Source: Woeseiaceae bacterium
GTDB lineage: Bacteria; Pseudomonadota; Gammaproteobacteria; Steroidobacterales; Woeseiaceae
Reading direction: 5' to 3'
Assembly: GCA_030066735.1 (NCBI GenBank)
Contig: JASJBB010000006.1
Location: 1-64,000, forward strand
DNA: 64,000 nt
Shown: one piece after another, positions 474 to 24,385 of the stretch
Layout of the letters: every line of letters starts with the position of its first letter
How positions within the stretch are numbered: position 1 is the stretch's first letter
Program-made: the position numbers and the translations under genes
Notes under the pieces: generated by a model
What the model saw: the letters and a program-made list of their open reading frames with translations, nothing else
Told to the model about the DNA's origin: nothing
Databases searched by the model: none

Positions 474-2309
474 ATGTGCGGAATTGTCGGCGCGGTCGCC
501 GAAAGAAACGTCGTTGATATCCTTGTCGAAGGGTTGCAGCGCCTCGAGTATCGCGGCTACGACTCGGCCGGCGTGGCGGTCGTCGACGACGAGAACCAGC
601 TCGCGCTGCGGCGTACCGTGGGCAAGGTGGCCGAACTCGAGGAAAAGATCGCAGCCGATCCGCTCGACGGCAAGATCGGCGTTGCGCACACTCGCTGGGC
701 GACCCACGGCGGCGTGACCGAGGCCAACGCGCATCCGCACGTTTCCGGTGGCCGCATTGCCGTGATCCACAACGGCATCATCGAGAACTTTCAGCCCATC
801 AAGGACGAGATGCTGGCGAAGGGCTATGTCTTCGAATCCGAGACCGATACCGAGGTGGCCGCCCACCTGGTCCATGAATTCGTCAAACAGGGCATGAGCC
901 TGGTGGAGGCTGTCGGCGAGGCCGTCAAGCGCTTCCAGGGGGCGTATGCCCTGCTGGTCGTGGATGCCGAGGATCCCGAGCGCATTGTCGTAACACGGGT
1001 GGCGAGCCCCCTGGTCATTGGCCTGGGTGACGGCGAAAACTACGTTGCCAGCGGCGTGCCCGCCCTGTTGCCGGTCACCCAGCGTTTCATCTATCTCGAG
1101 CAGGGCGACCTCGCCGAGATCCGGCGCGATGGCATCAGCATCTTCGACAGCAACGGCGAAGCGGCCGAACGCGAGGTGCACGAGACGGAGTGGGACAGCA
1201 CGTCGGCTGAAAAGGCGCCCTACGACCACTTCATGCTCAAGGAGATTCACGACCAGCCCAGCGCGCTGGCCGATACCTTGTACGGCAAGGTCGCGAACCA
1301 GCGCGTGCTGCCCGAGGCGCTCGGGCCCAAGGCCGCGGAGCTGCTCAACAAGGTCGAGCACATTCACATCGTCGCCTGCGGCACGAGCTATCACGCCGGC
1401 TGTGTGGGCAAGTACTGGATCGAGGCGATCGCCAACGTGCCGACGCACGTAGAGATCGCCAGCGAGTATCGCTACCGGCATGTCTACGTGCCGGAAAACA
1501 CGCTGTTCGTCACGTTGTCGCAATCGGGCGAAACCGCCGACACGCTCGAGGCGCTGCGCATGGCCAAGGAGCTCGGCTACCTGGGATCGCTGACAATCTG
1601 CAACAGCCCGCATAGCTCCATGGTGCGTGAATCGGATCTCGTCATGATGACGCAGGCCGGGCCGGAGATCGGCGTCGCGAGCACCAAGGCATTCACGACA
1701 CAGTTGTTGTCGCTGCTGATCGTTACGCTGATGATGGCGAAACACCGTAACCTGATCGACGAAGCGAAAGAGCGCGAGTTTGTCGCCAACCTCACCCATG
1801 CCGCGGCCGCGTCCGACCAGGCCTTGCAGATGAGCGATGACCTCAAGGAGCTGGCCAAGGATTTCGCCGACAAGCAGCATGCGCTATTCCTGGGTCGCGG
1901 ACCCATGTGGCCGATCGCCATGGAAGGCGCGCTGAAGCTCAAGGAAATCTCCTACATTCACGCCGAGGCATACGCGGCCGGCGAGCTGAAACACGGGCCG
2001 CTGGCGCTGATCGACGACGAGATGCCGGTGGTGGTGGTCGCGCCCAACAACGAGCTGCTGGAGAAACTGAAGTCGAACATGCAGGTTGTGCGTGCGCGGG
2101 GCGGCCAGCTCTACGTGTTCGCCGACGCGGAAACCGGCATCGAGAGCGAGGAAGGCACGATCGTGATGCAAATGCCGCACGCGGACCGGCTCATCGCGCC
2201 GATCGTGTATACCATTCCGCTGCAGCTGCTCGCCTATCACGTTGCCGTGCTGCTGGGTACGGACGTCGACCAGCCGAGGAATCTCGCCAAGTCGGTGACG
2301 GTGGAATAG
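474..2309 (+). CDS. glmS: Glutamine-fructose-6-phosphate aminotransferase (isomerizing)
   Basis: Makes glucosamine-6-phosphate from fructose-6-phosphate and glutamine, the first committed step to UDP-GlcNAc in the cytoplasm. The protein opens with MCGIVGAVA. Cys2 becomes the N-terminal nucleophile of the class II glutamine amidotransferase domain (about residues 2-220, with HTRWATHG and HNGIIEN). Two SIS sugar-isomerase domains follow (about 285-420 and 455-590). They contain ACGTSYHAG near residue 302, SQSGETADT, and the family end LAKSVTVE. Its 611 residues match the usual length of about 609. It starts 3 nt after glmU, the classic glmU-glmS pairing. No ribozyme or other leader is possible in the 3-nt gap. 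Confidence 0.98.
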   Translation: MCGIVGAVAERNVVDILVEGLQRLEYRGYDSAGVAVVDDENQLALRRTVGKVAELEEKIAADPLDGKIGVAHTRWATHGGVTEANAHPHVSGGRIAVIHNGIIENFQPIKDEMLAKGYVFESETDTEVAAHLVHEFVKQGMSLVEAVGEAVKRFQGAYALLVVDAEDPERIVVTRVASPLVIGLGDGENYVASGVPALLPVTQRFIYLEQGDLAEIRRDGISIFDSNGEAAEREVHETEWDSTSAEKAPYDHFMLKEIHDQPSALADTLYGKVANQRVLPEALGPKAAELLNKVEHIHIVACGTSYHAGCVGKYWIEAIANVPTHVEIASEYRYRHVYVPENTLFVTLSQSGETADTLEALRMAKELGYLGSLTICNSPHSSMVRESDLVMMTQAGPEIGVASTKAFTTQLLSLLIVTLMMAKHRNLIDEAKEREFVANLTHAAAASDQALQMSDDLKELAKDFADKQHALFLGRGPMWPIAMEGALKLKEISYIHAEAYAAGELKHGPLALIDDEMPVVVVAPNNELLEKLKSNMQVVRARGGQLYVFADAETGIESEEGTIVMQMPHADRLIAPIVYTIPLQLLAYHVAVLLGTDVDQPRNLAKSVTVE

Positions 2310-2322
2310 GGGGCCGCGGGCT

Positions 2323-2760
2323 ATGGAGTATTTCAGCGAAACACTGATTGTCCTGATGATCCTGGTCGGAGTCGCCGTGGCGGCCGTCGCGTTCGAGCCG
2401 GCCGATCCCCTGGATAACTGGAAACGACTCACCGAGCGCTACGCGACGAGCGGCTGGCCGGGCGACCCGCAGTTCACGATGCAACAGATTCACTTCGGCG
2501 GTCCGCGGGGTGCGCTGAAGCCGCTGAGCCCCAGTGCGACCTTCGATGTCGAAGTCGATGAATTCGGCCTGTGCCTGGCCGGCCGCGGCATTGGCGCGGA
2601 GGACACCCCCGACATCGTGCGCATTCCCGGCACTCATGTCCGGCCCGCCGGAAAACGCAGGCAAGGGTACGTATTCAAACTCTATGCCGAGCCGGCGGTG
2701 CGCATCCTCGTTGGCGGCGAGCTGGGATCGGAGCTGTTACGCAAGAGCCAGGCGGGCTGA
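2323..2760 (+). CDS. Hypothetical protein with N-terminal membrane anchor
   Basis: A 145-residue protein I do not recognise. Residues about 7-23 (ETLIVLMILVGVAVAAVAF) form one hydrophobic segment, either an uncleaved signal anchor or a signal peptide. The remainder is a small soluble domain with no clear catalytic motif, containing FTMQQIHFGG and VDEFGLCLAGRG. It begins 13 nt after glmS and is probably the last gene of that transcript. No terminator hairpin is obvious in the 94 nt between its end and the convergent gene that follows. Codon use resembles glmS, so it is likely a real native gene. Confidence 0.75.
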   Translation: MEYFSETLIVLMILVGVAVAAVAFEPADPLDNWKRLTERYATSGWPGDPQFTMQQIHFGGPRGALKPLSPSATFDVEVDEFGLCLAGRGIGAEDTPDIVRIPGTHVRPAGKRRQGYVFKLYAEPAVRILVGGELGSELLRKSQAG

Positions 2761-2854
2761 GTTAGTATCGGGCCATCATGGTAGCGCGCCACGACAACAG
2801 GCCCCGCAGGATAGTGGACTCGTGCGGTCACCGGATTCTTAGGGAAAGACCGGG

Positions 2855-3424
2855 CTATTCTGCTTGCCAGGCACTGAGTAGCAGCAGCACTTTTTCTGCA
2901 TTGGCGCGACTGTAAACGAACGCTCCCTCGGCGGAGAAGAGTTCGCCATATTCCGCCGGCCTGGTCGAAACCGCCCACTCGTGGAACTCGCCGACTGCCG
3001 CTCCCATCAACTGTTGCGACTCTGCCGAGAGTGTCGCGGCTACGGACTCAATGCGGCCGTCTTCTCCGAACGCAAACCTGTTCTCATCGTAAGTGATGGA
3101 CACGATACCGGCTGTGCGGAGCCAGTCATTCGATTCGACGACAGTGCACGACACCTCGCGGCCATCAGTGGCGCAGTCCCCGAACTCGAGATGCGTGTTC
3201 AATGCGAGGTCGTATTCGAGAATGCCGCGCACGGCGGGCCGCCCTTCGATTGACCCAAGCGGCCCGAAATTCAGGGTGGGCTCGTCCGCAAACAGCTTGA
3301 TTAGACCTTCGAGGTCTCCGTCATTCTTGAGTGCCTGGAACTCACGAACGCTCTGCTCGTAGTCGGGTTGCGGCGAGCAGGCAAGCAGCAGGCTGGCGAG
3401 AAGAATCGACGCCACGTGCTTCAT
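2855..3424 (-). CDS. NTF2-like (SnoaL-type) lipoprotein
   Basis: A 189-residue lipoprotein. The start MKHVASILLASLLLACS is a lipoprotein signal with lipobox LLAC, so the mature protein begins at Cys16 and is membrane-tethered. The rest has the layout of the NTF2/SnoaL alpha+beta cone: an N-terminal helix (YEQSVREFQALKNDGDLEGLIKLF), a domain with FADEPTLNFGPLGSIEGRPAV, and a strand region with VSITYDENRFAF. The FADEPT...GPLGSIEGR pattern is what SnoaL-like domains show around the cone opening. Function and ligand are unknown. It is the last of four short minus-strand genes of unknown role. Confidence 0.7.
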   Translation of the reverse strand: MKHVASILLASLLLACSPQPDYEQSVREFQALKNDGDLEGLIKLFADEPTLNFGPLGSIEGRPAVRGILEYDLALNTHLEFGDCATDGREVSCTVVESNDWLRTAGIVSITYDENRFAFGEDGRIESVAATLSAESQQLMGAAVGEFHEWAVSTRPAEYGELFSAEGAFVYSRANAEKVLLLLSAWQAE

Positions 3425-3476
3425 GGGTTTTCCAGCTTCTCGACATTCATTGCATTGCGATCAGTGCCGTATAGCT

Positions 3477-3905
3477 CTAGCCGACATCCAGACCATAGCA
3501 CTTCGTATCGGTGTTGTTCTCCAGCAGGTCACGAAGCCGGAAGTTGTACGAATCGGCGTAGTCGCGGATCGAATCGAATGCGTCCCACGCGCCTTCCCCG
3601 CGCAATTCAGCGAAGTTCGCGTAGGTTGCCGCGCCCCCATCGCCGAGAGGGTGATTTCTGCAACGACTGATTCCGTAAACAACTTCGGCTTCTTTCGCCT
3701 CGCCAAAATAGACCCGGGAACCGAGGAATCGATAGTCGCCGGCCGCGAATGCTTCTTCTGCAGCGGCCTCCGGCGACAACTGCGGGTCGATCCCCCAGTA
3801 CTGACCGTCTGCCGGAACCAGCCACGCATACCCGATGACCATCATGGCGACCACCACGGCGAGGCCGGCCGAAAGCAACAGCAGCTGGGAGAGCCTGATC
3901 ATCAT
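3477..3905 (-). CDS. Hypothetical membrane-anchored protein
   Basis: A 142-residue protein with one N-terminal transmembrane or signal segment (about 5-29, LSQLLLLSAGLAVVVAMMVIG). An extracytoplasmic domain with two cysteines (SRCRN and TKCYG) follows; these may form a disulfide. The segment EEAFAAGDYRFLGSRVYFG suggests a small alpha/beta domain. I do not recognise the family. It lies 33 nt downstream of the next gene on the same strand, so co-transcription is likely. The first two codons are both ATG; the second start would lose one residue only. Confidence 0.65.
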   Translation of the reverse strand: MMIRLSQLLLLSAGLAVVVAMMVIGYAWLVPADGQYWGIDPQLSPEAAAEEAFAAGDYRFLGSRVYFGEAKEAEVVYGISRCRNHPLGDGGAATYANFAELRGEGAWDAFDSIRDYADSYNFRLRDLLENNTDTKCYGLDVG

Positions 3906-3938
3906 GCCGTCACCACCTTGCGTGCATCAGCGCTGCAT

Positions 3939-4463
3939 TCACTCATACTCGGTGAGTTGTTCCCATCGTCCATCGCCCCGATGGAAGGATACCAACAGAT
4001 CTTCCATATGCTCGACGGACGCGGGCGGTTCCTTGATGACTTTTGTGATGATACCGGAACTATCTCTGTACGCCGACGACAGCCCGATGTCCGGAGCAAG
4101 GCTGCCGCCAACCTCCAAAGACTCGCCGGAGGGCTTAACCAGCCATACAAGATGAAAGCCCCCGGCCCAGTCGACGCTTCTGATCGTGTCCCGGATAAGG
4201 CCTTCGGCAGGGCTCTTGTCGACTATTCTGTGCTCGTCCGCGTCGACCGCATATACATGTAAGCCCGGAGCATTATCCGGTGGATCATCGCTTGCTTTTT
4301 CGGGGATCGAATCGTCTTTCGGTTCGTCGGGGCTTTTGCTTGACCAGATCGCCACATCCACCAGGTACTTTGCGACCAGCTTGGCGATGATAAACCCCGC
4401 CAGGATGACGACGGCGACAAGACCGATCTTGTCGGCTATTGGTACGATCGCGTCCCAGCTCAC
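3939..4463 (-). CDS. Membrane-anchored protein with possible Imm1-like C-terminal domain
   Basis: A 174-residue protein. Residues about 14-34 are a transmembrane helix, followed by an acidic, proline-rich spacer (about 43-66) and a soluble domain (about 68-174). The end of that domain (WLVKPSGESLEVGG, then a short turn, then LLVSFHRGDGRWEQLTEYE) reminds me of small bacterial Imm1-type immunity proteins, which finish with a strand of the form FLxGDxxWxxxxxWE. This is a resemblance by eye only. If correct, the protein could be an anchored immunity factor, but no toxin gene sits beside it. It is flanked by two other short membrane proteins on the same strand. Confidence 0.6.
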   Translation of the reverse strand: MSWDAIVPIADKIGLVAVVILAGFIIAKLVAKYLVDVAIWSSKSPDEPKDDSIPEKASDDPPDNAPGLHVYAVDADEHRIVDKSPAEGLIRDTIRSVDWAGGFHLVWLVKPSGESLEVGGSLAPDIGLSSAYRDSSGIITKVIKEPPASVEHMEDLLVSFHRGDGRWEQLTEYE

Positions 4464-4514
4464 AGCCTTATCTCGCTAGTGCTGGATGTTTGCGTCAGTA
4501 CTCTCGCCCGAAGA

Positions 4515-4838
4515 TCAGGGCAGCGGCCAGAAAAACAGCGCCAGTACGACAATCGCCCAGTACTCGACAGGTATGAAGAACAGCGTATGCGACGGCGCCT
4601 TGCCGACCACTTCACCCGATTCCTCGTCGATCAGAAGGCCACGCTTCATGTGGTTCAGGAAAACCCCGAGAATCCCCACAAGAACGGCAGCAGCAATGAA
4701 GGCCGCTTGTTTCGGCCAGGCGTTCGCCGTGTAGAAGCCCTGACCGTAAACGGCATCGACAGCAAGCTGCGTCAGAATCAATGCGGCGATGACGATGACC
4801 GGGACCAGCCAGCCGAATCCTCTCCAGACAATCAGCAT
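4515..4838 (-). CDS. Small integral membrane protein
   Basis: A 107-residue, very hydrophobic protein with about three transmembrane helices (near 5-28, 44-62 and 85-104). The start MLIVWRGFGWLVPVIVIA is a pattern I associate with a widespread group of short uncharacterised membrane proteins in Gammaproteobacteria and Bacteroidetes. A charged cytosolic loop (KRGLLIDEESGEVVGKAPSH) between helices two and three contains a GEVVGKAPSHTLFFIPVEYW stretch that looks conserved in type. Role unknown. It is the first gene of the four-gene minus-strand patch. Confidence 0.7.
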   Translation of the reverse strand: MLIVWRGFGWLVPVIVIAALILTQLAVDAVYGQGFYTANAWPKQAAFIAAAVLVGILGVFLNHMKRGLLIDEESGEVVGKAPSHTLFFIPVEYWAIVVLALFFWPLP

Positions 4839-4965
4839 TTCGAGATCTCCTGCGCCAACAGATTCTCTCCAGTTTGCCGCGCGCAGATGCTAGATTCTGA
4901 GACTTCGCTCCCAGTTAGACAGCCAGAGCTACTTTTCCTCGTGAGCCCTCCCGCAGGAGTACGCC

Positions 4966-5859
4966 GTGTTCGCAACGAAAACCTGGACCGCTCTGATATC
5001 CGTGCTGGCCATCGCGGCATGCGGCGGAGGTGGCGGCAACAATTCCTCCGGCAATCCGAACGACCCGGGCGGTGGAGGTCCGCCCCCGCCGCCGCCAGAC
5101 TCCGCGCGGCAGACGACGGATCAGCCGGACCTGTTTGCCGATGAGTATCAGGTGCACGTGATCTACGCTGTGCCCCAGGATGGCGAGGACAACGAGCTGG
5201 ATATCAATGGGGCAATTGCCGGCTCAGTCGCCGCAGCCAATGAGTTTTTTCTGGCGGCGAGCGGCGGCAAGATCGTTCGCTTTGACTTTACGACGGACGG
5301 CGAGCTGGATGTGACCTTCGTGCGCCTGCCAGATCTCGACGCCGAGTACGCTGCGAACGGACTTTTCGCCCGGGAAGCCATTCAGGCGGACGTAGTAGCG
5401 GCCGGATTTACCGCGCCCCGCAAAATCTATCTCGTTTACTACGACGGCACCAACGACAGGGCTTGCGGCGGCGCGCCGCCGCTGGGCACGGGCGACCCGG
5501 TTACCGTTCTGTATCTTCAGGGCGCAGTGCCCGGCTTCCTGCCCTGCGGAGACAACCCGCTAGCGCCAGCTATCGGGCCGGCCGGCTATTGGGAGTGGTC
5601 TGCGGTGCACGAGGTCGTGCACGCTTTCGGCTACGTGGACACCTGCGCGCCAAACTACAACGCGAGCCGCCCCGCGCATGTTGGAGACGATCCGTCGGAC
5701 CTGATGTATGCGGGCCCCGAACCGTGGCTGCCAACGACCGTCGATCCGGGCCAGGACGACTACTATGGCGCCAACGTCCCGGCCGCCTGTGCGCGAAACC
5801 TGTTCTTCAGCGCGTTCCTGGAGCCCCGAGACGGGGATCAGTTGCCGCCCAATTTCTGA
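4966..5859 (+). CDS. Secreted lipoprotein, putative zinc metalloprotease (HExxHxxG)
   Basis: A 297-residue exported protein. Its lipoprotein signal ends at Cys19 (LAIAAC). A Gly- and Pro-rich linker (about 20-46) leads to a globular domain. His215-Glu-x-x-His219-x-x-Gly222 (HEVVHAFG) is a zinc-binding motif, and Asp225 sits three residues after the Gly, where metzincins have a third ligand. Snapalysin-type enzymes (family M7) use Asp there. Met247 in SDLMYAG fits a Met-turn. An alternative third ligand is His238 in AHVGDDPSD. Six cysteines in the mature part could form disulfides. No peptidase propeptide is obvious, and the substrate is unknown. Confidence 0.7.
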   Translation: MFATKTWTALISVLAIAACGGGGGNNSSGNPNDPGGGGPPPPPPDSARQTTDQPDLFADEYQVHVIYAVPQDGEDNELDINGAIAGSVAAANEFFLAASGGKIVRFDFTTDGELDVTFVRLPDLDAEYAANGLFAREAIQADVVAAGFTAPRKIYLVYYDGTNDRACGGAPPLGTGDPVTVLYLQGAVPGFLPCGDNPLAPAIGPAGYWEWSAVHEVVHAFGYVDTCAPNYNASRPAHVGDDPSDLMYAGPEPWLPTTVDPGQDDYYGANVPAACARNLFFSAFLEPRDGDQLPPNF

Positions 5860-5905
5860 TAACAGACCGGCACGGTCGTGGCCTGCCACCACACGCAGAG
5901 GATCG

Positions 5906-5936
5906 AACGGCCGGCATGCCGAGCTTACCGGCCGTT
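5906..5936. repeat. Inverted repeat between convergent genes
   Basis: Perfect 9-bp arms AACGGCCGG and CCGGCCGTT around a 13-base loop, lying in the 95-nt gap between two convergent genes. It could end transcription from either side, but no T-run follows on either strand, so it is not a canonical intrinsic terminator. Confidence 0.45.
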
Positions 5937-5954
5937 AGACGTTCACAGCCATGT

Positions 5955-7535
5955 TCAGATCGACTCCGGCGTCGCCCACTCTCCGAGCGCGGCCTGGTCC
6001 ATGATGATCTCGCGGTGGCAGCTCCAGGTAACCTTGATGGCCTCCGGCGTGCCGATGCCGGCGCCGCGCGGGTCGCCCGCCGGACCGAACCAGTGGTTTT
6101 GCGGCGCGCCCGTGGTTCTCGCGCGCATGCCGCAATAGGTCGTGCCGTTAACGGTCGCGCCGAGCACCTTCTGCTGGAATACCGGGTCGGCGCTGACCAC
6201 GGCGGCCGTCAGGTGGTGCGACATGCGCTCGAGCATCCCCAGCATGTCCTCGAGATCGCCGTCGCCATAGGTAGCGACAACCTGGAACGGGCCGAACAGC
6301 TCGGTGGTCAGCAAATCGAAATGCTCGCCCTTGAGCGCATCGAATGGCACCTTGACCGCCGTTGCTTCGTAGGACCCGTATCGATCCGGGATGCTGTGGC
6401 CTTCGAGCTGCTTTCCGCCGAACATCAGTTCGGCGCCGGGAACAGCCATGCAGGCATCGACGTGCGCCTGGATTTCGTCGTTCGACCACGTGAGCACGGG
6501 ACCGATGGAGAGATTATCCATGCTCCTGCGCGCGGCCAGCGGCCCGAGCTTCGGCAGCAATGAGTCCGCCCAGTTCTCGTGGACGAACAGGATGCTCTGC
6601 GCCGAGCACTTCTGGCCGGACGCGTTGTAGGCGTCCTCGTCCGACTGCCAGGCGACATAGTCCACCCACCGCTCGTCGAAGTCGGGGCCGATCACCTTCC
6701 AGTCGAAGCCGGCATCCTCGATACGAACGCAGCCGTTGACCGCCACCGACGTCGCTTCGGCGACATTGCTCGAGCCCGTGAACTGCACGAGACGAATGAC
6801 GTCATTGGCCTCTTCGATCAGGCGGCCCATGGTCCTGCCGCCACAATGGATGAAGTCCATGTCCTTCGGCTCCAGGCCACAGTGAATCAATAGCCGGACG
6901 AACTGCTCGATGACGATGTCGACGGTCGTGGCCGACTTGAGCAACGGCCGGTTACCCATGAACAGCGCGCCCATCAGCTGCAGCGCCGGAATCTCGAGCG
7001 GGAAATTGAATGGCGCGACGATCACGACGGGGCCATAGGGCCAGCGGTAGCCGTTCGACTGCTGACCGGTTCGGTCACCCGGATTCGAGAAGCCGCGGGC
7101 CAGGAACCGCACGCCATCACCCGCGAAGTTCTCGAGGAACGTGCGGGTCACGGTGACTTCGGCTTTGCACTGGTTCCAGCTCTTCGGCATCACGCGCTGG
7201 ATCAGGCGCGTAAAGAAGTCCTCGACCTCTTTTTCTGCGAGCAACTGCGACGCCCTGGCGCAGACCCGGCCCAGCGCCACATAGCGCTCGACGTTCTTGA
7301 GCGGGTTGTGCAGCCCGGTCTTCGGGCAACTCCTCAGGCCGGCGACGAACGGAGCCACATCCTGGGTGTCCGGCATCTCGATAAAGGGCTCGCCGTTGAG
7401 CGGGTCGGGCACGGTCATGGTCTTCTCGGCCGACACCCACTGTCCGCCGACGAGATTCTGAGCCTGCGCCGGAGCGGCGCCCGTCATGCCGTCGAACGGG
7501 TCGACGGTGGCAAAGGAATTGACGATGTTGGTCAT
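5955..7535 (-). CDS. ALDH12-type delta-1-pyrroline-5-carboxylate dehydrogenase
   Basis: An NAD(P)-dependent aldehyde dehydrogenase of 526 residues, predicted to oxidise glutamate-gamma-semialdehyde / P5C to glutamate in proline degradation. From memory it aligns end to end with the plant ALDH12A1 family, not with bacterial PutA or RocA. Shared landmarks are DPLNGEPFI, GLHNPLKNVERY, FFTRLIQRV, FLENFAGDGVRFLARGF, GQQSNGYRWPYGPV, EDAGFDWKV, APQNHWFGPAGDPRGAGIGT and a final WSCHRE. Catalytic Cys310 sits in SGQKCSAQS and general base Glu273 in RIEDAGFDWK. No proline dehydrogenase gene is adjacent. Family assignment is strong; exact substrate is inferred. Confidence 0.88.
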   Translation of the reverse strand: MTNIVNSFATVDPFDGMTGAAPAQAQNLVGGQWVSAEKTMTVPDPLNGEPFIEMPDTQDVAPFVAGLRSCPKTGLHNPLKNVERYVALGRVCARASQLLAEKEVEDFFTRLIQRVMPKSWNQCKAEVTVTRTFLENFAGDGVRFLARGFSNPGDRTGQQSNGYRWPYGPVVIVAPFNFPLEIPALQLMGALFMGNRPLLKSATTVDIVIEQFVRLLIHCGLEPKDMDFIHCGGRTMGRLIEEANDVIRLVQFTGSSNVAEATSVAVNGCVRIEDAGFDWKVIGPDFDERWVDYVAWQSDEDAYNASGQKCSAQSILFVHENWADSLLPKLGPLAARRSMDNLSIGPVLTWSNDEIQAHVDACMAVPGAELMFGGKQLEGHSIPDRYGSYEATAVKVPFDALKGEHFDLLTTELFGPFQVVATYGDGDLEDMLGMLERMSHHLTAAVVSADPVFQQKVLGATVNGTTYCGMRARTTGAPQNHWFGPAGDPRGAGIGTPEAIKVTWSCHREIIMDQAALGEWATPESI

Positions 7536-19649: not shown

Positions 19650-21485
<1,836 letters not shown>

Positions 21486-21556
21486 TCACGATATAAACAC
21501 AATAATTTTTTATTTTCCCTGTATTTAGGTAGGGTTTCTACGCTTAGGGCATTATT

Positions 21557-21585
21557 TTGCGCCGAAACCGTAATAATTCTAAGAA
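21557..21585 (+). promoter_or_regulatory. Candidate promoter for the ECF sigma operon
   Basis: The 120-nt gap between hemB and the sigma gene is markedly AT-rich. On the plus strand TTGCGC and TAAGAA are spaced by 17 bases, a plausible sigma-70 promoter ending about 18 nt before the sigma start. The sequence CCGAAACCG inside the spacer could instead belong to an ECF-type -35. No transcription start is known. Confidence 0.3.
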
Positions 21586-21602
21586 GCGCCGGGTCATCTC
21601 GT

Positions 21603-22109
21603 ATGCATAGCAGCAACGCAGCCGCACACAGGCGGCAGAGGTTCGATCAGTACGTGGCCGTCTACCACCAGGATATGTACCGCTACGCCGCGTGGCTGAG
21701 CCGCGACCAGGCGATTGCTCAGGACGTGGTGCAGGAGGCGTTGCTGCGCGCCTGGAAATCGCTCGATAACCTGCGTGACGAGGGTTCGGCGAAACAATGG
21801 CTGCTGACGATCGTGCGGCGGGAAAACGCCCGGTTTTTCGAGCGTAAACGGCTCGAGACGGTCGACATCGACAACCTGACGGCCTCGCAGGAGGCGCTGT
21901 TGGGGGTGGAGGAGAACAACGAGCTCGACGACATGCGAAAGGCAATCTACGAGCTCGATGATGAATACCGCGAGCCGCTCGTGCTGCAGGTCCTGATGGG
22001 TTACAGCACGAACGAGATCGCCGAGCAAATGGGGCTCAAGCAGGGCGCAGTGCTGACCAGGCTGCACCGGGCAAGAGCCAGGCTCAAGGACAGAGTGGCA
22101 GATCAGTGA
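21603..22109 (+). CDS. ECF-type RNA polymerase sigma factor
   Basis: A 168-residue alternative sigma factor. Region 2 runs from about 12 to 80 (FDQYVAVYHQDMYRYAAWL, DVVQEALLRAWKSL, AKQWLLTIVRRENARFFERKR). Region 4 spans about 110-165 (LDDEYREPLVLQVLMGYSTN, EIAEQMGLKQGAVLTRLHRA). Regions 1 and 3 are absent, which defines an ECF sigma. The ATG at 21603 is used because the upstream open frame is antisense to hemB and has no sigma homology. The next gene, an anti-sigma factor, overlaps by GTGA. The sigma probably drives its own operon. Confidence 0.93.
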   Translation: MHSSNAAAHRRQRFDQYVAVYHQDMYRYAAWLSRDQAIAQDVVQEALLRAWKSLDNLRDEGSAKQWLLTIVRRENARFFERKRLETVDIDNLTASQEALLGVEENNELDDMRKAIYELDDEYREPLVLQVLMGYSTNEIAEQMGLKQGAVLTRLHRARARLKDRVADQ

Positions 22110-22813
22110 ATTGCGAACAGTACAGAGAGGCGATAGCCGCAGAACCGGGCTTCGATGGGGGCGCCGGTCATCTCAGCGAATGCGAAGCCTGCCAGGCATA
22201 TCGACGCGAGATGCTGGCGCTCGACGAGACGATCGGTCGGGCGCTCGCAATCGACGTTCCCGAGCTCGCCGTGCCGGACCTGCCCGAGATCGAGACCGAC
22301 AATGTCGTGGCGCTGCCGCGCCGGCGCTGGTCGGCCCCGACGATGCTGGCCATGGCGGCGACCGTGGTGCTGGCGGCGTTCATCGGCATGCGCATGCTCG
22401 ACACGGGCCCGCAACATGACTCCCTGGCTGACCAGCTGCTCGCTCACCTCGAGCACGAACCTTACGCACTGCGCGTCACGGATGAGCCCGTCAGCGACGC
22501 CAGGCTGGCATCGGTCGTCCCGGCGAACCTGGCCGAGATGGACCACAGCGCGGGCCTGATCACCTACGCGCGTACTTGCGAGATCAACGGCCGCGACGTG
22601 CCGCACCTGGTTATCCAGGGCGAACGCGGGCCTGTTACATTGCTGCTGATGCCGCACGAAAAAGTGGCCGCGCCGGAGTCCTTTACCGGCGAGAACATCA
22701 AAGGCGTTATCTTGCCCGTCGGCGAGGGCAGCATTGCATTGTTCGGCGATCGCGAAGAAGCGCTCGACCGAATCAGTGAAGAAGTTCTGAATTCGGTAAC
22801 GTGGAGCACCTGA
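22106..22813 (+). CDS. Zinc-binding anti-sigma factor, DUF3379-like
   Basis: A 235-residue single-pass membrane protein. The cytoplasmic part carries the zinc anti-sigma motif H22-x3-C26-x2-C29 (GHLSECEACQAY) plus Cys3, as in DUF3379 proteins. A transmembrane helix lies at about 79-97 (TMLAMAATVVLAAFIG). The periplasmic domain (about 100-235) has one further cysteine (YARTCEING) and ends with EEALDRISEEVLNSVTWST. It would hold the preceding sigma factor inactive and release it on a signal, perhaps through the cysteines or periplasmic domain. It overlaps the sigma gene by 4 nt. Confidence 0.87.
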   Translation: MNCEQYREAIAAEPGFDGGAGHLSECEACQAYRREMLALDETIGRALAIDVPELAVPDLPEIETDNVVALPRRRWSAPTMLAMAATVVLAAFIGMRMLDTGPQHDSLADQLLAHLEHEPYALRVTDEPVSDARLASVVPANLAEMDHSAGLITYARTCEINGRDVPHLVIQGERGPVTLLLMPHEKVAAPESFTGENIKGVILPVGEGSIALFGDREEALDRISEEVLNSVTWST

Positions 22814-22870
22814 CGCCCGTTGCCGTTACCAACGCCCAGCTAGGGCAAAAAAACCTGAGGAGAGAGAGAA

Positions 22871-23221
22871 ATGTCTGAGAAAAAAGTCGTAAAGCCTGTC
22901 GCCCTGGCTGTGGGCGCCGCCCTTGCCGGTTCGTTTGCCCTGTCCAGCAGCATCGCCAGCGCCGATACGGTCGAGAGCCCGTTTGCAATGTCGACACTGT
23001 CGGCTGGTTACATGCTCGGCACGGGCGAAGGTTCCTGTGGCGGCGACAAGGAAGGCAAGGACAAGGAAGGTGAAGGCAGCTGCGGTGAAGGTTCCTGTGG
23101 CGGCGACAAGAAAGACAAGGAAGGCGAAGGCGCCTGCGGTGAAGGCTCCTGCGGCGGCGACAAGGAAGACAAGGAAGGTGAAGGCGCCTGCGGTGAAGGC
23201 TCCTGCGGTGGCTCGATGTAA
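22871..23221 (+). CDS. HvfA-like low-complexity Cys-rich peptide precursor (EG(S/A)CG repeats)
   Basis: A 116-residue protein with two parts. The first 50 residues are a Sec-type signal/leader (KPVALAVGAALAGSFALSSS, then SPFAMSTLSAGYML), typical of HvfA-family precursors. The rest is low-complexity sequence containing seven EG(S/A)CG motifs; all seven cysteines (56, 71, 76, 89, 94, 107, 112) are in them. In HvfA of Haemophilus influenzae the EGKCG motifs are converted by MNIO enzymes (DUF692 plus a DUF2063 partner) to oxazolone/thioamide groups that bind copper. No such enzymes are in this window. The gene follows the sigma/anti-sigma pair by 57 nt, with a strong ribosome site (AGGAGAGAGAG). 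Family match is by eye; modification is inferred. Confidence 0.85.
   Translation: MSEKKVVKPVALAVGAALAGSFALSSSIASADTVESPFAMSTLSAGYMLGTGEGSCGGDKEGKDKEGEGSCGEGSCGGDKKDKEGEGACGEGSCGGDKEDKEGEGACGEGSCGGSM
23027..23218 (+). repeat. Tandem 54-nt repeats in the HvfA-like gene
   Basis: Coding repeats: a 60-nt unit (23027-23086), two 54-nt units (23087-23140 and 23141-23194) and a 24-nt partial unit. Each full 54-nt unit encodes 18 residues of the form EGSCGGDKxDKEGEGACG, with two CG motifs. The DNA copies are close to identical, so copy-number change by slippage or recombination is likely. Confidence 0.9.
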
Positions 23222-23253
23222 GCCCCCGGCACTTTCTGCATTGAATGCCGAAG

Positions 23254-23281
23254 AAGCCCGCGCCTTGCGCGGGCTTTTTTG
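23254..23281 (+). terminator. Intrinsic terminator after the HvfA-like gene
   Basis: Nine-base stem AAGCCCGCG / CGCGGGCTT with a five-base loop CCTTG, followed by a T-run. It closes the sigma operon 33 nt after the stop codon and separates it from tag. Confidence 0.92.
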
Positions 23282-23296
23282 TGCTTTACTTCCGTC

Positions 23297-23887
23297 ATGA
23301 GCAAACCGGTAAAGCGCTGCAAGTGGGCCGAGGGCGTCAGCCTCGATTACATTGCCTACCACGATCAGGAGTGGGGCGTGCCGGTCCGCGATGACCGGGT
23401 GCAGTTCGAGTTCCTGATTCTTGAGGGTGCGCAGGCCGGCCTGAGCTGGTCGACGATCCTCAACAAGCGCGCCGGCTACCGCAAGGCTTTCGCCGATTTC
23501 GATCCACACAAGGTCGCCCGTTTTACCGACAAGCGCGTCGAAAAACTGCTGCAGGACCCGGGCATCGTTCGCAACCGTCTCAAGGTGCAGTCCGCGGTGA
23601 CCAACGCCAGGGCCTTCCTGGCCGTGCAGGAGGAATTCGGCAGCTTCAGCGATTACATCTGGGGGTTCGTCGACGGCAAGCCCATCCAGAACCGGTTTCG
23701 CAAGGATGCCGATATTCCGGCGACGTCCGCCGAGTCGGATGCGCTGAGCAAGGATCTCAAGAAACGCGGATTCAAGTTCGTCGGCAGCACGATCGTCTAC
23801 GCGCACATGCAGGCAACCGGCCTGGTCAACGATCATGTCATCGGTTGTTTTCGTCATAAGCCCTGCCAGCGGCTTGCAAAAACCTGA
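23297..23887 (+). CDS. tag: DNA-3-methyladenine glycosylase I
   Basis: Removes 3-methyladenine from alkylated DNA in base-excision repair. The 196 residues open with KRCKWAEGV and contain YIAYHDQEWGVPVRDD, LEGAQAGLSWSTIL and GFKFVGSTIVYAHMQATGLV. VNDHVIGCFRH follows near the end. The N-terminal cysteine and a late His/Cys pair form the zinc-snap site of the Tag family. Its ATG lies 16 nt after the preceding terminator, so it needs its own promoter or limited readthrough. The length is normal. Confidence 0.95.
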   Translation: MSKPVKRCKWAEGVSLDYIAYHDQEWGVPVRDDRVQFEFLILEGAQAGLSWSTILNKRAGYRKAFADFDPHKVARFTDKRVEKLLQDPGIVRNRLKVQSAVTNARAFLAVQEEFGSFSDYIWGFVDGKPIQNRFRKDADIPATSAESDALSKDLKKRGFKFVGSTIVYAHMQATGLVNDHVIGCFRHKPCQRLAKT

Positions 23888-23938
23888 TCGCGGGCGGATC
23901 ATCGGCCCCACAAGAAAAGCAGAAATGAGGGGACCGTG

Positions 23939-24385
23939 ATGTCTGATGAATTCATCGATGACAGGCCGACGATAACGTTCTGGATCATCAGTGGCGCAGC
24001 GCTGATCTGGAACCTGCTGGGGTTATTCATGTACGTCAGCACCCGCACCGCCACGTCGGAGAGCTACGCTGCACAGGGCTATACGCAGGATCAGATCGCG
24101 TTCATCAACTCGACGCCCGAGTGGGCGTTGTCGGCCTTCGCGATTTCCGTGACGGCTGGCGTGCTCGCAAGCCTGTTCATGCTATTGCGCAAGTCCTGGG
24201 CGTTCCCCATGTTCGTCCTGTCGTTTGCGGCCATCCTGGCCGTCAATGTCAACACCTTCGTGCTGATGGATACGGTGGGTGTTCTTGGCACGGTGCCGGT
24301 CTACGTCCAGTCCGCCGTCATCCTGGTCGGCATTCTGCTGGTCGTCTATTCGCGTGCGGCGAAATTGAGAGGCTGGCTGACCTAG
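23939..24385 (+). CDS. Four-helix membrane protein of unknown function
   Basis: A 148-residue protein with four transmembrane helices (about 9-29, 63-85, 89-110 and 116-137), three or four of them close together. The loop after helix one carries ATSESYAAQGYTQDQIAFIN, with a following STPEWALSAF, a pattern I have seen in a group of uncharacterised small membrane proteins in Bacteroidetes and Gammaproteobacteria. The ATG at 23939 has a better-spaced ribosome site (AGGGG) than the GTG at 23936. Its stop shares CTAG with the convergent subtilase. No function is assigned. Confidence 0.72.
   Translation: MSDEFIDDRPTITFWIISGAALIWNLLGLFMYVSTRTATSESYAAQGYTQDQIAFINSTPEWALSAFAISVTAGVLASLFMLLRKSWAFPMFVLSFAAILAVNVNTFVLMDTVGVLGTVPVYVQSAVILVGILLVVYSRAAKLRGWLT

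Follow-up and report, generated by a model that had tools for sequence, protein, structure and literature searches.

The closest described relatives of the locus considered here are the HvfABCX/oxazolin system of Haemophilus influenzae and the fontiphorin system FonABC, for which published work describes enzymes of the HvfB/HvfC type that turn the cysteines of EGKCG motifs into 5-thiooxazole, giving products that bind copper (PMC13097082, PMC13419390). A survey of MNIO (DUF692) enzymes considered the five genes on either side of each MNIO gene, and in the parts of that survey used here Buf1 but not Buf2 is described with sigma genes, none are mentioned for the EGKCG group, and sizeable shares of the Buf1 and Buf2 precursors are not adjacent to MNIO genes (PMC12452194). 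In Caulobacter crescentus, the sigma-F regulon comprises two DUF2282-DUF692-DUF2063 operons, one of them with DoxX, together with YedY (PMC3511200). Here, a stretch of 64,000 nucleotides from a Woeseiaceae bacterium (assembly GCA_030066735.1, contig JASJBB010000006.1, positions 1 to 64,000), referred to below as the window, was found from its sequence and open reading frames (ORFs) to carry one plus-strand operon that encodes an extracytoplasmic function (ECF) sigma factor, an anti-sigma factor and an HvfA-family peptide and is closed by a terminator-like hairpin. Judged by sequence, this sigma-DUF3379-hvfA operon is matched in relatives by a separate hvfB-hvfC-hvfX operon, with one promoter-like motif before both. 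The two loci very probably represent a captophorin/oxazolin-type (HvfA) metallopeptide system that is encoded in trans and whose halves are joined by a dedicated ECF regulon.

The product of the third gene (22871..23221) is a predicted ribosomally synthesized and post-translationally modified peptide precursor of 116 residues, in which a putative leader/signal peptide is followed by exactly seven EGxCG motifs (EGSCG five times and EGACG twice), the number counted in the initial annotation, with each cysteine falling in one of them. It exceeds the cut-off of NF050137, the NCBIfam model of the HvfA-family repeat domain (43.9 against 19.5 bits), being the only match to this model in its own genome, and fails the HvfA equivalog NF050188 (28.7 bits, cut-off 95); by its sequence, it is a relative of the HvfA family and no HvfA equivalog. 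The sigma factor (21603..22109, 168 residues) is above the Pfam cut-offs for Sigma70_r2 and Sigma70_r4_2 and reaches 203.8 bits against a cut-off of 197 for the NCBIfam subfamily PRK12517, and the coordinates first given to it hold. The anti-sigma gene (22106..22813, 235 residues) begins with a GTG that overlaps the sigma stop, and DUF3379 (PF11859) is the sole Pfam match of its product (113.4 bits against a gathering score of 33.2). Anti-sigma factors of the zinc (ZAS) type combine an HxxxCxxC motif with one more conserved cysteine or histidine. This pattern is present here as C3 with H22, C26 and C29, all kept in at least 90% of 71 relatives, and the earlier wording "zinc anti-sigma" is a fair one on the strength of the motif. 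The single closing terminator is likewise retained, with its predicted stem now placed at 23249..23281 instead of 23254-23281.

The arrangement was followed in other genomes, where G denotes a compared genome, L a fetched locus, and the genus sample consists of 36 other genomes. The anti-sigma gene is present in 34 of these 36 and is followed every time by a gene for an EGxCG peptide of similar leader (two peptides are cut by a contig end), the sigma gene preceding it in 33/33 loci where the contig extends that far. Since the operon is conserved in this way, the grouping of sigma factor, anti-sigma factor and HvfA-like peptide that the initial annotation had noted is no chance. In other families of the order, the peptide accompanies the anti-sigma factor in eight of nine genomes, the ninth (G058) lacking both the peptide and an MNIO. 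A scan of named genomes returned 51 loci, mostly from Woeseiaceae metagenome-assembled genomes (MAGs) and partly from the same genomes as the genus sample, and 50 of them carry the peptide; the one that does not is a 57-residue match in a Zixiibacteriota record. At class level, DUF3379 was above its cut-off in 39 of 274 genomes, giving 38 loci outside the own genome, seven with an MNIO in the fetched flank and three with an EGxCG peptide (one of them from the same genus), and thus DUF3379 is not bound to HvfA everywhere; neighbouring genes read by eye at 19 of the 38 loci revealed no common partner. At six loci of other gammaproteobacterial families (L219, L220, L221, L238, L239 and L249), the ECF-DUF3379 flank holds an MNIO that shares 35-40% identity with the HvfB query.

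The predicted modification enzymes are encoded elsewhere in the relatives. MNIO genes were found in 33 of the 36 same-genus genomes, and in all 33 loci (one per genome) MNIO, DUF2063 and DoxX genes stand together, the order being nth-DUF1841-hvfB-hvfC-hvfX with rsxCDGE beyond, as far as the contigs extend (DUF1841 was assigned by Pfam and had no match in L070). The proteins of L065, to which the equivalog test was applied, passed the NCBIfam cut-offs for HvfB (424 against 360 bits), HvfC (305 against 142) and HvfX (137 against 80). Additionally, GLGLRR or GLGFRR together with ERDFN occurs in 32/32 same-genus MNIOs of this locus picked up by script (L070 was missed), and Arg-Arg and Asp-Phe motifs have been reported for MNIO enzymes of the Lys-Cys group (PMC13097082); matched by motif and not by alignment to FonB, the same-genus enzymes appear to be like those of that group. 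The full pattern is absent from three extra MNIOs of G015 (L051, L052, L054) and from L004, L008 and L078. In Woeseia sp. OFTM247, assembled as one contig of 3.6 Mb, sigma-hvfA lies at about 2.908 Mb and hvfBC at about 0.814 Mb, 2.1 Mb apart, with a DoxX only 28% like the query.

A local precursor beside the MNIO gene was considered and rejected: the fetched flanks of the same-genus MNIO loci hold no peptide with at least two xGxCG motifs (other cysteine-rich precursor types were not systematically searched), and the gap between DUF1841 and the MNIO gene is 20-232 bp. The word "orphan" first applied to the window's peptide is therefore probably a misnomer as regards function, since relatives carry a separate enzyme locus, and of the two explanations offered with it, enzymes lying elsewhere is strongly favoured by the HvfB-HvfC-HvfX locus of relatives with its same motif, whereas a peptide that works unmodified, as an orphan without any enzyme, finds no support in them. 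Further HvfA-family precursor matches, some strongly repetitive, were seen at G003:C276:8221-8289, G040:C21:44376-44747, G059:C17 and C25, and G051:C38:9336-9410. In another family of the class, a locus (L230, G197:C6:103000-109000, at 2358-5999) holds the whole system in a single cluster, with sigma-DUF3379 and, divergently, an EGSCG peptide-MNIO-DUF2063-DoxX series whose MNIO shows 61% identity.

The link between the two loci is a motif, GTAATAA-N15-GGTC, which upstream comparison found common to the sequences before the sigma and the MNIO genes. In the window, this ECF-type promoter-like element, which the initial annotation did not list, lies upstream of the sigma gene on the plus strand (21570..21595), where autoregulation is predicted, and is the sole match at no more than one mismatch, against 0.22 expected from shuffled sequence. 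Between its GGTC and the sigma ATG lie 7 nt, which suggests that the message is leaderless or nearly so. In the genus, the exact motif precedes the sigma gene at 33/33 testable loci including the own one (one more is cut by the contig start) and the MNIO gene at 31/32 (one is cut, and the miss, L069, reads GTAATAT), with a spacing of exactly 15 in all 64 upstream sites. Within 345 + 125 kb (470 kb) of same-genus loci, other copies and matches to the reversed pattern numbered 0 and 0. The spacing of 15 recurs in 47 of the 50 named loci with a peptide, the remaining three starting too near the anti-sigma gene. Across 36 whole genomes, 87 matches were obtained against 27 for the reversed pattern, 27 of them at sigma genes, 22 at MNIO genes and 38 elsewhere; among these genomes, the sigma site is present in 21/21 of the same genus with an anti-sigma factor and the MNIO site in 18/19 with an MNIO, the remaining one being cut. 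As far as sequence goes, the motif ties the two loci together tightly within the genus and less so outside it. The motif shared with the MNIO locus makes the proposed sigma control of the peptide likely. That it is read by another sigma factor, or reflects a coincidence of upstream DNA, is improbable: such a reading would be favoured by the several order-level MNIO genes without the motif, and it is opposed by the invariant spacing in the 64 same-genus sites, by the 470 kb free of any other site and by the reappearance of the motif at diverged sigma-DUF3379 loci of the class (L221, L225 and L233, and L220 facing an MNIO; 4/37 such loci outside the genus).

Presence and absence of the two halves also go together. 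Among 60 genomes, the peptide was found in 45/50 with an MNIO versus 2/10 without (Fisher p=2e-5, shared ancestry uncorrected); the 45 include four peptides read directly, and hidden Markov model matches alone give 41/50 versus 2/10 (p=3e-4). The peptide without MNIO occurs in G000 and G002, the latter being the sole such genome besides the own one. In two reduced genomes of 1.5 Mb each, G004 and G011 (90% and 89% complete), no anti-sigma, peptide-family or MNIO match was obtained. Both keep the nth-DUF1841-DoxX-lpdA region, from which MNIO and DUF2063 are absent (for DUF2063 the search covered this region only) and in which the motif is retained, followed in G011 by an ATG, five codons and a stop. 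As G004 and G011 may be close relatives, this joint absence may be one event. In G037 (98% complete), rsxC and DUF1841 share one contig and no MNIO, anti-sigma or peptide match was found.

The own genome (3.34 Mb in 173 contigs, 85% complete) gave no match to PF05114 (MNIO) or PF09836 (DUF2063) anywhere in its length, which extends to the whole assembly the earlier statement that neither gene is in the 64-kb window; an MNIO and DUF2063 pair beside the precursor is thus absent from the own genome and apart from it in relatives. The genome-wide search proposed with that statement returned nothing, most likely for want of the assembly part concerned. DUF1841 is missing from the own genome, G002 and G020 and was found in the other 20 of G001-G022, and RsxC is represented in the own genome by nothing more than a 37% paralog, against 66-81% orthologs in 21/22 same-genus genomes. 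A 10.6-kb probe of the enzyme block from G012 matched over only 65 bp, the probe being without a positive control, and contigs break at the same place elsewhere, the MNIO contig of G020 and the rsx contig of G002 both ending at the enzyme locus. Because the neighbours of the locus are missing too, an assembly gap is likelier than loss, and the enzyme locus of the own genome was most likely lost to such a gap. It is hardly likely that the own species truly lost the enzymes and relies on an unmodified, thiol-rich peptide to buffer metals or redox changes. The lack of any PF05114 or PF09836 match in 3.34 Mb is what such a loss would predict; it stands against the missing DUF1841, orthologous RsxC and all but 65 bp of the probe, against the fact that G002, the sole other genome with the peptide and without an MNIO, has its contig ending inside rsxG, and against G004 and G011, where an intact locus without the enzyme goes with a missing anti-sigma factor and peptide.

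Several observations weigh against a trans-encoded system joined by one regulon. No enzyme gene is seen in the organism itself, and RsxC absence is weakened as a sign of a gap, since rsx can be lost in the genus: G011, the exception among the 22 genomes, has nth and DUF1841 with no rsx match beside them. The searches behind the joint absence in G004 and G011 covered the anti-sigma factor, the peptide and the MNIO and not the sigma gene, and five of the 50 genomes with an MNIO (G043, G045, G053, G055 and G056) are without a peptide match. Beyond the genus, six order-level genomes with the anti-sigma factor have the sigma site in 6/6 and the MNIO site in only 4/6; under narrower limits, the motif is present at 7/9 order-level sigma loci and 3/10 MNIO loci, with two of the three positive MNIO loci coming from one genome and several of the ten belonging to genomes that lack the anti-sigma factor. 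The motif is missing on the sigma side of L090, its exact form was not found in L230, and the 38 extra genome-wide matches are not far above the reversed control of 27. Finally, motif position 3 is Ser or Ala and not Lys, and Ser is unnamed among the residues that FonBC tolerates in the part of that report used here (PMC13097082).

This last point concerns the whole genus. The Lys-Cys repeat EGKCG is not found in the window's peptide, and in the genus position 3 is Ser in 241, Lys in 15 and Ala in 13 among 281 motifs (from 36 rows in which two genomes appear twice), whereas for other families of the order, counted over seven of eight peptides, it is Lys in 54/59 motifs. Read from these sequences, there is a genus-wide shift from Lys to Ser in the EGxCG motif. 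FonBC has been reported to tolerate Ala, Arg or Thr at this position (PMC13097082), and thus EGACG is directly precedented and EGSCG is plausible. As for the HvfA-type leader, its strict pattern is found in 34/36 same-genus rows and 2/7 order peptides and is absent in L005, and its loose pattern is found in 36/36 rows, 7/7 order peptides and L005, the signal peptide having been recognized by eye.

The buffering of copper or another metal by the peptide, as first proposed, is inferred from its family. It can be envisaged that a periplasmic signal, copper or thiol oxidation, would inactivate the membrane anti-sigma factor, and that the sigma factor, once free, would jointly transcribe the operon that encodes it and the distant one for the enzymes; HvfB and HvfC would then act on the EG(S/A)CG repeats, turning their cysteines into 5-thiooxazoles, and the peptide, after export, would bind copper in the periplasm. 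The structure model of the anti-sigma factor (mean predicted local distance difference test score 85, predicted TM-score 0.55) consists of N-terminal helices, a long helix at 77-97 and a C-terminal alpha-beta domain. The helix, the single long one predicted, is taken by eye as a predicted membrane helix. In the C-terminal domain, H114, C158 and H167 are nearly invariant (at least 90% kept in the 71 relatives) and are candidate sensing residues. Comparison of about residues 130-235 with the RseB/MucB fold gave Z 7.3-7.7 at a root-mean-square deviation of 3.1-3.9 Å over 91-104 residues, below the safe level of the tool, and the five best RseB/MucB-type rows of Foldseek had E 0.04-0.12; the resemblance does not exceed what the comparison tool regards as common, and no relationship is claimed from it.

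The nature of the signal was considered together with the further motif sites. Taken together, these sites exceed the control by little, which makes any one of them weak. Of the 38, 20 were read, and eight of these fall within an ORF of at least 150 aa, three of the examples named below among them, the overlapping ORF being on the opposite strand in those cases. An MsrP gene follows a site in L148 (G039; 458 against 207 bits), AhpC/TSA-like genes follow sites in L143 by Pfam and in L136, L146 and L213 by eye (the same-genus examples are G018, G020 and G021, with the Pfam check for G021 only), and thioredoxin-like genes do so in L139 by Pfam (the G010 example) and in L210 by eye. The second exact site of the own genome (C168, L129:933-2000) precedes a DUF3179 gene. 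OFTM247 has eight sites against one for the reversed control; two are the sigma and MNIO loci, and the remainder include sites at AhpC/TSA-like, thioredoxin-like and DUF1223 genes and at a BufA2-type bufferin precursor with a second MNIO (L212, G060:C1:210000-217000, at 2012-3535; BufA2 128 against 60 bits). For three extra MNIOs of G015, the motif was not found within 1500 bp. In two genomes of the genus, the gene downstream of a motif site encodes a small protein of 65-67 aa that looks exported (L132:1556-1753 and L134:1525-1728). In the light of the sites before AhpC/TSA-like, MsrP and thioredoxin-like genes, the peptide may be modified by the distant enzymes within a regulon whose main signal is oxidative or thiol stress in the periplasm, copper playing an incidental part. 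This possibility has to be taken seriously and is still rather doubtful, as the extra sites are overall little above control (38 versus 27), one of them precedes the BufA2 gene of L212, the family binds copper in published work, and the sigma-F genes of Caulobacter answered chromium and cadmium and not the oxidants tried, as far as the part of that study used here extends (PMC3511200). Returning to the trans-encoded metallopeptide system, it is tentatively proposed that DUF3379 is a periplasmic copper/thiol sensor (through H114, C158 and H167) and acts through one ECF sigma factor to induce a thiooxazole peptide pathway encoded in trans, together with a BufA2 bufferin in one Woeseia and perhaps with genes for redox repair in the periplasm, while the Ser/Ala-Cys variant may tune chemistry or metal preference; a group of marine sediments would then have a regulon dedicated to copper peptides.

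As for the remaining features of the region, hemB (ALAD) lies divergently upstream of the operon and a methyladenine glycosylase gene downstream. A short inverted repeat, GCCC-N5-GGGC, is situated between the anti-sigma stop and the peptide start (22834..22846, plus strand) and has counterparts before the peptide gene in 45/50 named relatives under a loose pattern; it might set relative expression. No Rfam family reached its gathering score within 21000-24000, and a simple scan of 21400-23400 for sigma-70 promoters found none.

These results indicate that, when an HvfA-type precursor looks like an orphan, a shared promoter and joint absence can lead to its enzymes where neighbourhood does not; a survey limited to five genes either side of the MNIO is blind to such a split layout. 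They also propose a function for the DUF3379 anti-sigma family, supply a short exact motif usable for regulon prediction, and offer natural EGSCG substrates bearing on how HvfB-type enzymes read the residue before Cys. Marine Woeseiaceae MAGs are among the relatives of the hosts, and Woeseia has been reported as dominant on copper surfaces in seawater, where rpoE genes were abundant (PMC6917582). A literature search with most subscription journals outside its scope found no description of a split hvfA/hvfBCX layout in the titles or opening abstract lines of the best 20 of 194 and the best 20 of 518 papers, and nothing on DUF3379 by name, on EGSCG or on GTAATAA with an ECF sigma factor.

The present system resembles sigma-F/NrsF in pairing an ECF sigma factor with a predicted membrane anti-sigma factor bearing conserved, probably periplasmic cysteines; in Caulobacter, too, a small regulon includes MNIO-DUF2063 operons at separate places, one promoter motif and YedY, of the MsrP family (PMC3511200), and the company of MsrP and bufferin genes at the extra sites parallels that regulon. 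Unlike here, NrsF is a DUF1109 protein with six transmembrane segments, the motif is GTAACC-N16-CGAA, and the DUF2282 precursors each lie beside their own MNIO (PMC3511200). Membership of the sigma-F/NrsF group is not borne out, the anti-sigma factor matching DUF3379 only and the motif being GTAATAA-N15-GGTC. The Buf_EGKCG/oxazolin clusters of the MNIO survey are similar in their repeat-bearing precursor family with two motifs and in their DoxX and DUF2063 partners (PMC12452194), and since unlinked Buf1 and Buf2 precursors have already been reported, unlinked precursors as such are not new. With HvfABCX and FonABC, the system shares a putative exported leader followed by EGxCG repeats (PMC13097082, PMC13419390), the HvfB, HvfC and HvfX families in relatives, and the RR and DF of the Lys-Cys-group MNIOs; it differs from them in that the precursor stands apart from the enzymes, sits with an ECF sigma factor and DUF3379, and carries EGSCG and EGACG, not EGKCG. 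The parts belong to named families, and what differs is the arrangement, with hvfA in an ECF-DUF3379 operon, the enzymes in trans behind the same motif and the shift from Lys to Ser.

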